The notes beneath the pieces were generated by a model. The model saw nothing but the letters and a program-made list of their open reading frames with translations. It was not told where the DNA came from and ran no database searches. 53,356 nucleotides of DNA from a virus, in the IMG/VR virus record IMGVR_UViG_3300038548_000358, positions 1 through 53,356 of that record, one strand, 5' to 3'. Of this stretch, positions 28,864 to 52,101 are shown piece after piece. Position numbers and translations under genes: made by a program. How positions within the stretch are numbered: position 1 is the first letter of the stretch; the number at the start of each line of letters is the position of its first letter.

Positions 28864-28867
28864 GCAC

Positions 28868-28875
28868 CAAATATA
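28868..28875 (-). promoter_or_regulatory. Promoter -7 element TATATTTG (terminase), possibly leaderless
   Basis: Perfect TAnnTTTG. Only GTGC separates it from ATG 28863, so the transcription start expected a few bases downstream falls at or next to the start codon. Confidence 0.65.
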
Positions 28876-28889
28876 CTAAATTTATATTT

Positions 28890-28919
28890 GACCAAGAAAC
28901 GACCAAGATTTAGGTCACC
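28890..28919. repeat. GACC-type repeat cluster, left
   Basis: GACCAAG at 28890-28896 and 28901-28907 and an inverted AGGTCACC at 28912-28919. Related to the cluster at 29541-29626 at the other end of the hub. Confidence 0.65.
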
Positions 28920-28961
28920 TCTAAAAAGTACCTAAAATCACCTAAAACAAGAAAAAGGGAG

Positions 28962-29252
28962 GGAAACAAAGAGAAACAATAAGAAACAATCATTGTTTCC
29001 GCTACAGCCCGTGCCACCACTAGGTTTTTGGGCAAAGGAAACAAAGAAACAATAAAAAAGCCTCTGTAACCTTATAGCGCGTTTTATGCGTTTACCCGTT
29101 TTATATACCGTTAGTAGTTATATTTCTATATTTACTAATTAAAGTCTTTTACTATATTTATTGTTTCTTTGTTTCCCCACCCTGCCAAACCTCGCCACCA
29201 CTGAGTTTTTGGTGGAAACAATCATTGTTTCTTATTGTTTCTCTTTGTTTCC
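28962..29252. repeat. Nested inverted repeats of GAAACAA units
   Basis: Outer arms 28962-29000 and 29214-29252 (39 nt, complementary at 38 positions) are built from GAAACAAT/ATTGTTTC units. Inner arms 29037-29056 and 29157-29176 are a perfect 20-nt inverted repeat, GGAAACAAAGAAACAATAAA. Between them lies about 100 bases of AT-rich DNA. The right half (29136-29252) recurs at 51547-51663. Confidence 0.9.
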
Positions 29253-29540
29253 TTTTTTAAAACTTAAAATGTGCCCTCCGACCAGTGGCATAGGTATGTA
29301 CAGACGTTTTACGGCATGAGTTGTTTTTTATTGGGTTTCCTAAAATATCGTGATTTCTCACTTTTTCAAAAAGTTGTGATTTTTAAAATCCCCAAAAATG
29401 TTTTTAAGGAAAAATAAGTATTTTGGAAATCATTGTTTCCCTTTTCAGTCAAAAATGACATAAAAAAGAGGTAAAAATAAAAGTGAAATAAATTGAAATT
29501 AGTACTAAATTACCCTAAAAGTGATACTTTTTTACCTCAA

Positions 29541-29626
29541 CTTAGGTCACCTTTTGACCAAGATAAGCCCTAAAACGACCTAAATATGTACTAAAGTGAC
29601 CAAGATATGACCTAAAACGACCAAAG
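29541..29626. repeat. GACC-type repeat cluster, right
   Basis: AGGTCACC, then TGACCAAGATA (twice), CGACCTAAA, TGACCTAAAA and CGACCAAAG occur within about 85 bases, spaced roughly 10-20 bases apart, resembling iterons or operator sites. Confidence 0.65.
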
Positions 29627-29632
29627 AAAAAC

Positions 29633-29806
29633 CTACTTAAAAGGCTTTATTTTCAGTTTAATCCCTCTTTTGTGCCCGAAATTCACCTCGGTAACGCTGC
29701 CCCACACCTTTTTGCCTGTCTCTCCATTTATATAAAACATCTTACTTCCTAGATCAGGTTGGCCTATTTTTCGCCATGTTTTACTATCAAAAATTCTAGT
29801 TGCCAT
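29633..29806 (-). CDS. Small basic protein (57 aa)
   Basis: ATG 29806 overlaps the stop of the 106-aa gene by 11 nt; TAG is at 29633. The product starts MATRIFDSKTWRKIGQPDLG and has a basic, beta-rich C-terminus ending KLKIKPFK. Its length falls below common cut-offs. It is the last gene of the early block, just before the repeat hub. No family recognised. Confidence 0.65.
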   Translation of the reverse strand: MATRIFDSKTWRKIGQPDLGSKMFYINGETGKKVWGSVTEVNFGHKRGIKLKIKPFK

Positions 29807-44968: not shown

Positions 44969-46936
44969 TTAATCTTTTTTATAGAATGGAGTTAAATATC
45001 CATCAGCTGCCAAAGGTAATCCTTTAGCCCACGGGGCTTCTATCCCCATAATTCTACACATATCTTCAAGAGTGTCCTCGTTGGTTTGCTCGTTAAAAGG
45101 TATCTCACAAGCCGCCTCATCATGTACATGCATCACGATATCATATCCTTTTGCATCTAAGTTGAGCATTGATAGAGCTAATAAATCCCGTGCAATGGCT
45201 TGGACAATGTTCTCAGTCAGTTTACCCCCGTAGGTGTCAATATGTAGCCACTGTTTAGTTACTGAGTCAATCCCACGGTATGCGATGGCATCATTCCCCC
45301 ATTGATTCTTTTTAAATACTGGATTCCAATAGAATAATTTTCTACCTGAGGGAAGCTTAACAGTAAGTGCGTTTTTATCGCAGTCAAACTCAATGCCCTT
45401 GAATTTAGAAATTACTTTTTTATGTCCTCTTACAGATATTTTTGCACAGTTCTCCATGTCTTTCCAAAGTGCAACGATATTAGGACTTGCCTTTCTCCAT
45501 TTAGTAACAATGGCTTTCATCTCCATCTCTGAGAGTCCCATCTTCTCACCACCCATCTGCATCAACGCTCCAACTGCCCCCTGATATCCTAAGGCCAACT
45601 CAGCCACTTTACCTTTTGCCCTTAAATCTGAGCCTTTGGTGACCTTCTCAATAGGTACGTTAAACATCATGGATGCTGAGGACTCATATATTTTACCGTG
45701 GCTTCTGAAAACGTCCTCTCTCCATTTCTCTCCTGCGAGCCAAGCGATCACACGAGCCTCGATGGCACTGAAATCTGCTACAGCAAATGTGTGGTTTGGC
45801 TTAGCCACTAAGGCTGTCCTGATTAACTGTGAAAGTACTGAGGAGATATCATCATACACCATTGAGATGTGGTCATAGTCTCCAGATCTTATCAATGTTC
45901 TTGCCTCTGCTAAATCTGTTAAGTGGTTCTGTGGTAAGTTTTGGAGCTGTACCAATCTACCTGCCCATCTACCCGTACGGCTTGCACCGTAGAACTGTAA
46001 AAGTCCATGCGCTCGACCATCATCACAGGTGCATTTTAGCATAGCTAAGTATTTTTTTGTCGAGGTTTTACCTAGTTTCCTCCTAAAGTTAAGTACGTCT
46101 GTAACATCCCCAGGCCCAGCTTCATCAATTAAATCTCCAATACCATCTTTTGCTAATGTTTTAATTTCTTTTCGCATTTTAGCACTGAGCCATTTCTTAA
46201 GCTGGGCGGGGCTGTTCGGGTTATCTAACCCTGTGATCTTTTTAACTTCGGCTTTTATGCCGTTGGTGAATGTCATATCTACATCGTAGGCACTTTGTGC
46301 CAAGACTAAATCTGTCATAATCCCCTTATCGTTTATTTTCTGATCGAGGATGTAGTTTTGTCTCTCGAATTCTGGAATTTCATATTGCAGTAGTCTATTG
46401 TCGATTTCTCGTTCTGCCTCAACATCTTGGATACAGTATTGTTTGAACTCCTCCCATTTCTCTAAATCGTGGTGGGGAAAATTCCTGACTCTGTAATCGT
46501 TTTTCTTAGTTCCTTTTATTGGACAAGAAAAGAATTTTATCAAGGCTTTACCCGCTGCAGACTTTCCATCATCTCCTAATTTCAGAGCTTTGGAAGCTCC
46601 ATCTAATGAAGAAGGTAAACCACAATAGGCAGCTTTCACTGCTGAGCATCTCCATTCAGCTGCGTCTACATCGTAGCCATAAACTATAAACGCTCTACGT
46701 TCAAAATTGGCGTTGTGTGCGTGCTTTTCTATACTTGGGTTGTTCAGCCCCTCAATAAATCTTTTTGGAAGTTGTTCGCCTTGTGCCATATCTATAAGCT
46801 CCACAGGCTCATCATCGAAAGCAAACCCTGTCATGAGAATCTCGAAATCTACCGACTCCATGTACTTGTACGCTCCTGCGGTCTTGATATCTATCGAGGA
46901 GTAAGTCTCGATATCGATGTGTAGTTTTTTATTCAT
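44969..46936 (-). CDS. DNA polymerase, family A (with 3'-5' exonuclease domain)
   Basis: The product is 655 aa. The N-terminal exonuclease has HIDIET (Asp8, Glu10), HNANFERRAF near 76 and YCIQDVEAE with Asp171. The polymerase part has motif A ADFSAIEAR (387-394), motif B LRAKGKVAELALGYQG (438-453) and motif C VHDE (604-607). There is no 5' nuclease domain. It is the phage-type replicative polymerase of the same module as its neighbours. The large structured non-coding region ends only about 25 nt upstream of the ATG. Confidence 0.95.
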   Translation of the reverse strand: MNKKLHIDIETYSSIDIKTAGAYKYMESVDFEILMTGFAFDDEPVELIDMAQGEQLPKRFIEGLNNPSIEKHAHNANFERRAFIVYGYDVDAAEWRCSAVKAAYCGLPSSLDGASKALKLGDDGKSAAGKALIKFFSCPIKGTKKNDYRVRNFPHHDLEKWEEFKQYCIQDVEAEREIDNRLLQYEIPEFERQNYILDQKINDKGIMTDLVLAQSAYDVDMTFTNGIKAEVKKITGLDNPNSPAQLKKWLSAKMRKEIKTLAKDGIGDLIDEAGPGDVTDVLNFRRKLGKTSTKKYLAMLKCTCDDGRAHGLLQFYGASRTGRWAGRLVQLQNLPQNHLTDLAEARTLIRSGDYDHISMVYDDISSVLSQLIRTALVAKPNHTFAVADFSAIEARVIAWLAGEKWREDVFRSHGKIYESSASMMFNVPIEKVTKGSDLRAKGKVAELALGYQGAVGALMQMGGEKMGLSEMEMKAIVTKWRKASPNIVALWKDMENCAKISVRGHKKVISKFKGIEFDCDKNALTVKLPSGRKLFYWNPVFKKNQWGNDAIAYRGIDSVTKQWLHIDTYGGKLTENIVQAIARDLLALSMLNLDAKGYDIVMHVHDEAACEIPFNEQTNEDTLEDMCRIMGIEAPWAKGLPLAADGYLTPFYKKD

Positions 46937-46961
46937 TTTGATTTGATTGATTTGATTTTAA

Positions 46962-47939
46962 AACCAAAAAGTAAAGTAGTATGTCGCCTTGGCGTTAAAT
47001 CATAGTTACTCAAGCATGGAAACTACTTGCCTTCTCACCTCATCGTGTCACCCTCTTTCGAGAGCAGTGAAAAATACATAATTCGCTTTACTTTTGGTTC
47101 TGTCAAGTTCGCCTGTACTTGTTAGGAGAGAATGATTAACTTTTATTCCCTAGAAAATTATCGAGGGCTTAGTCTCGTTAAGCAAATAATTAGTTTGGAG
47201 GTTGTGTAGCCTACCGCCGGTGCTTGCTTTATTGTTTCAGAAGGCGAACCCTCACAGAATATAAAAGACCTAATCTGGCTTGTAGTTTTTGATGTCCGAG
47301 AGGAGCCTATCTCGGTAAAGTTTTAAAAAAGTTCTTTGCCCCTAATTTCAGTTAAGGGGATGAGGAGCTGGCTATTCAGGAGATCAACCCTTCCAGACGC
47401 AACGAACACTCATCTCTACAATAAACACAACTGCTGATACAGTCTGACAAGTTAAGTTATATTTTTTTCAAAGCGCCTTTTACATTGCACTACTTTGTCG
47501 TTTATCTTCAAGCAAAGAACTTTTATTCTAGGTAAGTGTGCTACCATTACACCAACAGGAGATTCGACCCCCTGCAACAGAATCCAACTGTTACCTCTTA
47601 CTGCTTTTTTTTCTTTTTAAAAAACTAGGGCTCGGTTCTACACCCTAGCGTGCGCTTTCAGGAGTCTTTTAGCTTATCTCCCTAGCTATTTGTGGAACCG
47701 ATTTTGTGGAGGAGGATGGAGTCGAACCACCGAATCTAGTCCCCTGTTGATACCCCTACCAACACCTAGATGGCTAACCATTTTTAACCTGCTGAAAATA
47801 TCAGCGTACCTTTTAAGTACTCTCCCCCGTTTTAAAAATAATTAGTGAGCCCCGCATCTTGTCGCATTTAAGGGCTTGTGGTGCAGATATCGCCTCGCTC
47901 TGGTCCCCAGAGTGTGTGCCTAAGCACGACCCACTAACT
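46962..47939 (-). ncRNA. Giant structured RNA candidate (GOLLD/ROOL-like or new class)
   Basis: About 980 bases without a protein gene but full of complementary arms (minus strand). Helices found: 47939-47932 with 47847-47840 (8 bp) enclosing hairpins at 47927-47916, 47912-47898 and 47876-47848; 47828-47822 with 47714-47708 (7 bp) joined to a T-arm-like hairpin GGTGG-TTCGACT-CCATC (47731-47715); 47701-47695 with 47638-47632; a D-arm-like hairpin GTGT-AATGGTA-GCAC; 47520-47512 with 47339-47331 (9 bp, 170 nt apart); 47315-47310 with 47301-47296; 47183-47179 with 47171-47167; loop pairing 47249-47242 with 47114-47107 (8 bp); 47099-47086 with 46976-46962 (14 bp, one bulge). A terminator-like hairpin at 47619-47648 may split it in two. 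I cannot assign a family. Confidence 0.6.
47619..47648 (-). terminator. Terminator-like hairpin inside the structured region
   Basis: CTAGGG/CCCTAG stem (12-nt loop) followed on the minus strand by six T. Its loop overlaps the 3' arm of another possible helix (47701-47695 with 47638-47632), so the two could be alternatives, or this may end a first RNA unit of about 320 nt. Confidence 0.5.
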
Positions 47940-47953
47940 GTTTTTCAATCTTA

Positions 47954-48490
47954 CTAACTCAAATCATCTCCATCATCAGTTCCGAAGTCAGCCTCAACAG
48001 AGGAACCTCCCCCGCCTAAACGTTCACCGTCTTCTAAAAATTGTAGATTCTGCAACCCGCAAGCGACACCTTTATTTGAGGGTACATCAAAAGCGTAAAA
48101 GTTTATTGATGCTCTACCATAGCATCCTGAGTAAAACTCCTCTGGATCGATGATCTCATTCATGTCTGCATCAACCACTTTAGGTTTGCGCACGCTTTTT
48201 GCATTTACAAAATAACAACCTGCGTACACTTCGTCCCCTTCTTTCTCCTCGTCCCCATCTCTTAAAGGGCTTTTGGATTTCATAGGAAATTTAACCCCGT
48301 ATTTCTCACGGCCTTCCACTCGTGCAGCTTGTATGGCTGCCTCAATTTTCTTGACAGTCTTAGTGTCTGTTTTTGGGATCAACAACGCAACACTGTATTT
48401 TTTTGTTTGGTTGTCATCCATTGCTCTGGCTTCGAACACTTGGACATAGCTCATTCTAGCTTTTCCTGTTACTACTTTCGTTTTTGACAT
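47954..48490 (-). CDS. ssDNA-binding protein (DUF2815)
   Basis: The product is 178 aa. ARMSYVQVFEARAMDDNQTK, KYSVALLIPKTDTKTVKKIE and SGCYGRASINFYAFDVPSNK GVACGLQNLQ match the DUF2815 family, an OB-fold ssDNA-binding protein of phage replication modules. The C-terminus is acidic and ends DFGTDDGDDLS, almost the same as the end of the upstream DUF2800 protein (DFGKDDPDDLS). In SSB proteins such a tail recruits partners. Promoter at 48524-48531. Confidence 0.88.
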   Translation of the reverse strand: MSKTKVVTGKARMSYVQVFEARAMDDNQTKKYSVALLIPKTDTKTVKKIEAAIQAARVEGREKYGVKFPMKSKSPLRDGDEEKEGDEVYAGCYFVNAKSVRKPKVVDADMNEIIDPEEFYSGCYGRASINFYAFDVPSNKGVACGLQNLQFLEDGERLGGGGSSVEADFGTDDGDDLS

Positions 48491-51255: not shown

Positions 51256-51263
51256 CAAAGATA
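51256..51263 (-). promoter_or_regulatory. Main early promoter TTTG-N18-TATCTTTG
   Basis: Perfect -7 element with TTTG about 18 nt upstream, followed by the leader ACATATCAAAACAGAGATATT and ATG 51234. It is the promoter closest to hub 2 and heads the replication block. Confidence 0.85.
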
Positions 51264-51443
51264 AGCCTTTTTATCGAATATCAAAGAATATTTTAATAAA
51301 AAATGAAAATAAGTTTTAAACAAACTCCAACTCTTTGCACCTCAACAATTTACGCAGTGGAAACAAAACCTTTAGTGCATTGTTTCTCAGTTAACCCTCA
51401 GCAATCCAACGTTTTACACCTCTAAAAACGGAAGGGAAACAAT

Positions 51444-51663
51444 GGAAACAATAAATCCTATAAACTTCTAAACGTGTTTTTACGTTTTAATAATACTATA
51501 TTACCTATATAATAATACTATTTTACCCCTATATTTATATATTCCTTAATTAAAGTCTTTTGGTATATTTATTGTTTCTTTGTTTCCGTAGCCTCTCAGC
51601 CTTTGCTGTATCTAGGTTTTTAGTGGAAACAATCATTGTTTCTTATTGTTTCTCTTTGTTTCC
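51444..51663. repeat. GAAACAA repeat block, second copy
   Basis: 51547-51663 aligns without gaps to 29136-29252: first a 41-nt part (taattaaagtctttt..., two mismatches), a variable 37-nt spacer, then an identical 39-nt part. The left arm here is decayed: GGAAACAATAAA remains at 51444-51455. Adjacent DNA (51470-51546) is very AT-rich. Confidence 0.9.
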
Positions 51664-51693
51664 TTTCTACTTGTCAGAAATTGCTGTAAACAT

Positions 51694-51719
51694 AAAAAAC
51701 CAAGCTAAAAAGCCTGGTT
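51694..51719 (-). terminator. Intrinsic terminator of the RNA candidate
   Basis: AACCAaGCT/AGCcTGGTT stem (9 positions, one mismatch, 4-nt loop) followed on the minus strand by six T. Confidence 0.75.
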
Positions 51720-51969
51720 TCCTAAATCATTAATCATCAAAACAAAGTGTGCGTGGATACACAATCGAGGTAAATATAAGTATTATTTATTGAATAGCTA
51801 TTATATTAAGTAAAAATGTGGGATATATGTTGGTCTTCGCATCCGCAAGAGGTATCTATTAAAGCATTACCTAAAATATTTGAGACACCTCTTGGCTGGT
51901 AAAGACACGCTATTCTAATCCAGCTTTGTATTAAGTACACCTAGTAATGAATTAGTCACCCTAACACTC
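51694..51969 (-). ncRNA. Small non-coding RNA candidate
   Basis: A perfect promoter element (51974-51981) lies just upstream and an intrinsic terminator at the end, giving a transcript of about 275 nt without a convincing reading frame. Structure: an 11-bp hairpin, arms 51893-51883 and 51857-51847 (one G-T pair), and a 5-bp hairpin GCTGG/CCAGC (51924-51920 with 51899-51895). A TATATTTA at 51771-51778 could be a second start. It may regulate the early genes or the host polymerase; there is no family match by eye. Confidence 0.5.
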
Positions 51970-51973
51970 TTTG

Positions 51974-51981
51974 CAAATATA
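51974..51981 (-). promoter_or_regulatory. Promoter -7 element TATATTTG (RNA candidate)
   Basis: Perfect TAnnTTTG match on the minus strand, between the terminator of the lysis cassette and hub 2; no protein gene follows. Confidence 0.65.
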
Positions 51982-52015
51982 GTTAATTTTAGATAAATGC
52001 CTAGTTTTTAGATAT

Positions 52016-52053
52016 AAAAAACCCATAAGCTCCTTTGCGGCATCTTATGGGTT
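52016..52053 (-). terminator. Strong intrinsic terminator of the lysis/late transcript
   Basis: Perfect 10-bp stem AACCCATAAG/CTTATGGGTT (arms 52020-52029 and 52044-52053, 14-nt loop), followed on the minus strand by six T. It lies about 50 nt after the holin-like gene and separates late from early transcription. Confidence 0.9.
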
Positions 52054-52101
52054 AGTGTGAGATATTAATTCCTCTATTATGATAGGGGTCAAATATAGTT
52101 A

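Follow-up and report, generated by a model that had tools for sequence, protein, structure and literature searches.

The stretch of DNA analysed here, hereafter the window, is 53,356 nucleotides long. It is a tailed-phage genome, with tape measure, portal and terminase present, and its main genes are on the minus strand. Between the genes for a ssDNA-binding protein and a family A DNA polymerase (PolA) there is a gap of 1017 nt on the minus strand (46937-47953). An earlier note on this DNA had described the gap as free of genes, and this is borne out: no ORF of at least 60 aa is found in 46937-47953 on either strand. From the upstream to the downstream gene, the features of the region are the following.

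47954-48490, minus strand: Enc34-type ssDNA-binding protein, upstream gene (Pfam PF10991, E 6e-67)
47840-47953, minus strand: 5' spacer behind the stop codon of the ssDNA-binding protein, weakly structured (z -1.7)
47707-47828, minus strand: TLS1, tRNA-like RNA of 122 nt (MFE -45.9 kcal/mol, z -3.67)
47619-47700, minus strand: module B, likely pseudoknot (homologue in contig L144)
47538-47592, minus strand: TLS2 fragment (from sequence; T arm by scan)
47323-47526, minus strand: core RNA of a new family (covariance model R1, 106.5 bits)
46955-47110, minus strand: 3' module, a closing stem (47099-47086/46976-46962) enclosing hairpins, ending just before the polA start (z -2.7)
44969-46936, minus strand: PolA, downstream gene (Pfam PF00476)

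A scan of the full window gives zero Rfam families at the gathering cut-off, and ARAGORN finds zero tRNA. In a permissive Rfam scan of the gap, a sub-threshold tmRNA is the only match with a convincing E-value. Homologue searches with the 5' spacer (47840-47953) and with the 3' module (47110-46955) found none.

Two other parts of the window also have no ORF of at least 60 aa. One of them (51259-52101, about 840 nt) contains promoter-like TAnnTTTG boxes and hairpin-plus-T-run terminators, and possibly holds further small RNA genes. The other (28864-29795, about 930 nt) is near the terminase gene, and a search for T arms in it found none.

The earlier note regarded the gap as a heavily base-paired region of about 980 nt, a candidate for a single giant RNA. 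That it is a non-coding region of structured RNA, with tRNA-like modules and with a part that belongs to a new RNA family, holds; the single molecule does not. When the MFE of the whole gap is compared with dinucleotide shuffles, the minus strand has a z-score of -1.1 and the plus strand one of 0.0, while single modules fold better: -3.7 for the tRNA-like unit, -2.7 for the 3' module and -1.9 for the core.

Further, the longest perfect stems in shuffled copies of the gap are 12-17 bp, so most of the long stems listed earlier are not evidence alone. The 14-bp stem of the 3' module is indeed in the MFE fold, but it is not above chance length, and by itself it is unremarkable. A loop pairing of 8 bp (47249-47242/47114-47107) is a possible candidate. 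The 9-bp helix 47520-47512/47339-47331, for its part, is real and shows covariation in homologues. It lies within a stem of 15 bp (47524-47510/47341-47327), which is the terminal helix of the core. However, it closes a self-contained unit of about 200 nt that is found alone in dozens of phages, and is thus not what holds a molecule of 980 nt together. What the gap contains is a small island of RNAs, a string of modules, and not a single giant RNA.

The core was followed into other phages by sequence. Using blastn, a 26-nt exact match is found in the cultured Cellulophaga phage phi14:2 (crAss-like) and a 24-nt exact match in the Cellulophaga phage phi4:1 group. A 22-mer from the blastn match is present in 50 IMG/VR contigs. 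Scanning again with a 5' motif adds members that carry substitutions in it, so the way of searching does not by itself account for its near-invariance. Altogether the family is found in more than 60 phage contigs from diverse genomes, mostly from marine samples, the IMG/VR contigs being partly redundant.

The fold of the core is multi-branched: a terminal helix closes it, the centre is almost invariant and two arms vary in length and sequence. In the window its elements are the following.

47521-47513/47338-47330, minus strand: P1, terminal helix
47506-47500/47426-47420, minus strand: P1b
47499-47495/47450-47446, minus strand: P2, variable arm, closing GACAA/TTGTC
47442-47440/47433-47431, minus strand: P3, hairpin
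47414-47409/47364-47359, minus strand: P4, variable arm, GATGAG/CTCATC
around 47358-47339, minus strand: P5, hairpin with loop CUGAAAUU, then a T run

The layout P1, P1b, P2, P3, P4, P5, T run is the same in nearly all complete copies around the 22-mer, and the length varies between about 165 and 250 nt across the family.

Model R1 was built from a seed of 19 homologues, aligned by MAFFT without structure, in which 89% of the pair cells pair. The seed consists of trimmed copies: the middles of the variable arms were excised and one G was dropped from P5 of the window. The window core matches R1 with all six helices and the conserved centre (106.5 bits, E 1.8e-18), a score that is obtained by construction because its trimmed copy sits in the seed; independent members score 64-106 bits.

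In 46 distinct untrimmed sequences, 93.6% of the pair cells are paired, in an alignment that was produced by R1 and hence fitted to the structure. When the pair partners are slid by 1-3 columns as a control, pairing is 41-49%. Two-sided changes are seen in 24 of the 34 pairs, and there are 201 double-change cells in the 46 rows, compared with 56 ± 9.5 in shuffles. The core of about 200 nt thus passes the check by covariation that was suggested for the region, as does module B, though with only two sequences. The core is a structured phage RNA family that is absent from Rfam, and no description of it, or of the tRNA-like units discussed below, was found in open-licence papers.

Outside phages the family is scarce. 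Among 84,980 species genomes a 20-mer of the core centre occurs in a single contig, which is 37 kb long, belongs to a Lutibacter MAG and may itself be phage. The same contig is the only match when 395 Bacteroidota genomes are searched with R1 under strict filters, and a search of plasmids gave no match. By these searches the family is practically absent from bacterial genomes. It is also not found among the PolA relatives of the window (none in L001-L020 or L083-L162; one 20-bit match in L002, E 0.66, is judged chance), so in this lineage the core is an accessory element.

A number of irregular copies were seen. Contigs L043 (8071-8369) and L075 (9332-10000) contain a second, diverged core copy, and in L075 a tRNA-like unit lies between the two. 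In L170 (215-312), L178 and L183 just the 5' half is recognisable, running into an ORF; such half-cores may be remnants, or cores in which an arm has been filled by a gene. Directly downstream of the core in L046, L079 and L050 there is a shared hairpin, GGTCAAACCGATGACC or a close variant. Three hypothetical proteins annotated in or next to the core region of Cellulophaga phages are probably spurious ORFs: AGO48881.1 and AGO48882.1 (L022:1321-1619, KC821624.1) and ALO80177.1 (L023:1939-2097, KT962245.1).

The genomic context of the core is not uniform. Just upstream of 8 of 44 copies there is a promoter box TAnnTTTG (the Bacteroidota -7 box), against 0.76 expected; the window core lacks one. 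Eleven of the 44 copies abut the stop codon of an ORF and 19 are co-directional with both neighbours. In L068, L177, L041 and L051 the next gene downstream is convergent, so there the core is not a leader. In L181 and L031 terminator-like hairpins come after the core. Further, in two unrelated tRNA arrays it lies between tRNAs, with spacers of 9-11 and 5-9 nt. A recurrent partner protein was looked for and rejected: the neighbours are lineage-specific and differ between phage groups.

The two variable arms do not follow each other. L039 and L045 have P2 in common and not P4, while L041, L049 and L051 have P4 in common and not P2. From such sequence comparisons, P2 and P4 appear to be exchanged between phages.

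We propose that the core would exist as a free RNA of about 200 nt, either released by processing or transcribed from a promoter of its own. It would act in trans: its variable arms would supply exchangeable specificity, and its invariant centre would bind a conserved host factor. Action in trans as a free RNA is, in our estimate, evenly poised between being right and being wrong. Given the fixed centre, the exchangeable arms and the accessory, phage-bound distribution, the role would be directed at the host; counter-defence or host takeover is the most likely one, as a conjecture. Antisense pairing to rRNA was considered and rejected, as the centre finds no better pairing in the 16S/23S of one Bacteroidota genome than shuffles do. 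The 5' segment has one 15-nt LSU match, G-U pairs included, where 15 shuffles give at most 12.

Next to the core, the gap contains the tRNA-like modules. The T arm GGTGG-TTCGACT-CCATC and the 7-bp acceptor, GGGGGAG/CTCCTCC, to which it had been said to be attached exist in TLS1 (47828-47707, z -3.67). The third acceptor pair is G-U (G3-U70), and the discriminator is A, followed by CAA. TLS1 thus has the acceptor and the TTCRANY loop of a tRNA; a canonical anticodon arm, with a 7-nt loop and U33, is not present. Instead, an arm of 5 bp with a loop of 5 nt stands where the anticodon arm would be, and the MFE fold also has a D-like arm and two additional arms.

That these modules do not form a canonical tRNA was stated correctly. 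TLS1 is the best place in the record for the tRNA model, with 18.3 bits against a cut-off of 29; ARAGORN reports nothing and there is no decoding loop, and TLS1 was rejected as a canonical tRNA. As a tmRNA it was also rejected: the match scores 23.6 bits against a gathering cut-off of 47, 38 nt replace the 271-position middle of the model, and there is no apparent tag reading frame. Nor is the CAA after the discriminator a special mark, as ordinary tRNAs of these phages mostly carry it too: in L030, L034, L042, L044, L054, L060 and L065 the discriminator is mostly followed by C and an A-rich sequence (often CAA), not by CCA. A phage-borne tmRNA above the cut-off (57.3 bits, acceptor with G3-U70, missed by ARAGORN) is found in L029 (980-1359, minus strand), directly upstream of a core RNA.

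TLS2 consists of three pieces.

47592-47576, minus strand: anticodon-arm-like hairpin AACAG-TTGGATT-CTGTT (from sequence)
47573-47557, minus strand: T arm AGGGG-GTCGAAT-CTCCT (by scan)
47552-47538, minus strand: D-arm-like hairpin GTGT-AATGGTA-GCAC

The order of the arms is wrong for a tRNA, and a search for an acceptor gave none that is convincing, only weak and distant partners. The D-arm-like hairpin, noticed earlier, is present and has a near copy (20 of 21 nt identical) in the tRNA-like unit of a relative, L014.

With PolA as the anchor for homologous gaps, about 20 related Bacteroidota-type phages are found to have non-decoding tRNA-like units in the same gap before polA. Croceibacter phage P2559Y and Bacteroides phage BF503P2 are cultured carriers. 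Some of the units (e.g. in BF503P2 and L144) were missed by the scan and recognised by eye. In more distant relatives, most of which are taken for Firmicutes phages, the gaps are short and contain no tRNA-like units.

The units of the relatives retain an acceptor of 6-7 bp, the T arm and usually the D arm (with GG). Their anticodon arm is either missing, or it has long inserts or loops of 3, 4, 5 or 8 nt. In L091 (837-893) and L014 (4646-4705) it is deleted, and still the Rfam tRNA model gives 49.1 and 41.1 bits against its cut-off of 29. Units lacking this arm also precede polA in L101 and L008, and the size is 56-59 nt in L091, L014 and L101. The distance from the end of the unit to the polA start is 21-33 nt in eight relatives. 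An ordinary-looking tRNA is also present in a few gaps; that of L093 is, from its sequence, apparently a tRNA-Gln. Beside the tRNA-like units of L012, L014, L024/L187 and L190 the gaps have a common motif, GTTAATCTTAGACCCGTTAAGG and variants, which is probably another RNA element.

The tRNA-like units could be processing signals, cut by RNase P and tRNase Z (tRNA punctuation). Such cuts would split the messages of the ssDNA-binding protein and PolA and would free the RNAs between them. Punctuation would account for the decay of the anticodon arm while the acceptor, the T arm and usually the D arm persist: what the two enzymes need would be retained, and the part used only for decoding lost. 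In the window itself the unit is about 770 nt from polA, and punctuation would leave a long leader, which counts against it. We hold this model tentatively, and judge it slightly more doubtful than not.

Module B has a counterpart in one relative. A segment of about 34 nt is conserved between the helix strands, and the same gap of L144 (2714-2790) has a homologue with 94% identity over 36 nt (E 3.6e-6). Its parts in the window are given below.

47700-47695/47638-47633, minus strand: S1, CGGTTC/GAACCG (paired change in L144)
47648-47643/47630-47625, minus strand: S2, CTAGGG/CCCTAG (paired change in L144)
47624-47619, minus strand: T run (from sequence)

In L144, S1 is changed to CAGGCC/GGCCTG and S2 to AGAGGA/TCCTCT. 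Two crossing helices that change in step make a pseudoknot likely, on these two sequences. Beyond L144 blastn finds no homologue; one further match in a scan with 18-mers is inside an apparent coding sequence and was judged chance.

Several other readings should be considered. The whole region of about 980 nt could be one giant ornate RNA of a new family, similar to GOLLD and ROOL and possibly a multimeric cage. In favour are the size, the occurrence in a phage, the tRNA-like neighbours and the presence of at least one pseudoknot, and also long gaps in relatives (1062 nt in L093, 719 in L024 and 617 in L008). However, these gaps share only tRNA-like pieces and module B with that of the window, the core stands alone in dozens of phages, and the folding energy of the whole gap is unexceptional. 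Further, the covariance models of GOLLD (RF02032) and ROOL (RF03087) have no match in the record at E <= 10; the ROOL model was silent on the 14 control genomes too, but full Rfam scans of the window also lack a ROOL match. The proposed identity with these families therefore fails, and we find a giant RNA of any kind highly improbable. That the region is made of decaying tRNA or tmRNA genes and functionless spacer is scarcely credible: the disordered pieces of TLS2 and the sub-threshold tRNA and tmRNA matches would fit, but acceptors and T arms are intact in many relatives, phage genomes are compact elsewhere, and covariation largely refutes decay for the core.

The core could also be a cis element of its own transcript, for example a put-like antitermination RNA or a stabilising or insulating element in a leader or 3'-UTR. 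It is mostly co-directional with its neighbours, it abuts stop codons, it is often 15-35 nt ahead of an ATG, it lies inside long tRNA arrays, and in L181 and L031 it precedes a terminator-like hairpin and then a gene. The convergent genes in L068, L177 and the L041/L051 group speak against this, and so does the L041/L051 group, which stands alone with its own promoter box. Moreover, the downstream genes have no common function, and a cis switch needs no two variable arms; we therefore regard a cis role as unlikely, while giving it real weight. For the tRNA-like units, the alternative is that they are decoys or substrates that capture host enzymes or defence effectors at the acceptor end or elbow of tRNA. 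An acceptor-end decoy needs just what is retained, namely acceptor, D arm with GG and T loop, and no anticodon. On the other hand, a decoy leaves the fixed place before polA and the spacing of 21-33 nt in many relatives unexplained, and the unit of the window has extra arms. A decoy seems to us rather improbable.

Of the structure we are confident: there are separate modules, a conserved phage RNA family and non-decoding tRNA-like units that recur at one site. The best overall explanation is an RNA island with tRNA-like processing signals and a trans-acting core of about 200 nt; for the functional side of it we would not bet either way. In the fullest version, small RNAs widespread among phages, each with a constant centre and interchangeable arms, would act in trans on a conserved host target during infection of Bacteroidota, and the anticodon-less tRNAs of this lineage would punctuate the replication operon. 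We would wager somewhat against this version.

The presence of the core in unrelated phages (phi14:2, phi4:1 and others up to about 175 kb), together with its rarity in bacteria, suggests a common trick in the infection of Bacteroidota, and the cultured phages make it directly testable. The anticodon-less tRNA genes, at one site between the same two genes, would if true be a natural example of tRNAs whose only service is to mark processing sites. Such genes also illustrate what escapes tRNA finders and ORF callers.

GOLLD and ROOL RNAs are structured and encoded by phages, have no known function and often occur close to tRNA islands (PMC12286853). The core resembles them in that it too sits inside tRNA arrays in some phages. 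However, it is only about 165-250 nt with its own closing helix, compared with about 600-800 nt, it is seen practically only in Bacteroidota-type phages and it has no match to their models. With tmRNA (RF00023), TLS1 shares the G3-U70 acceptor, the A discriminator, the T arm and, where the anticodon arm would stand, an altered arm, but it is 122 nt long, has no apparent tag frame and reaches 23.6 of 47 bits.

The put antitermination RNAs of HK022 are small structured phage RNAs, in operons or just behind promoters. By description the core is similar, a small structured phage RNA within operons or behind promoters, but it is also found at operon ends facing convergent genes. In mitochondria, tRNA genes serve as punctuation of mRNA. 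The phage units differ in being without a decoding role, and cleavage is here a proposal. The likeness is that tRNA-like units lie between two messages, with the parts for RNase P and tRNase Z present and an anticodon arm that is free to decay.
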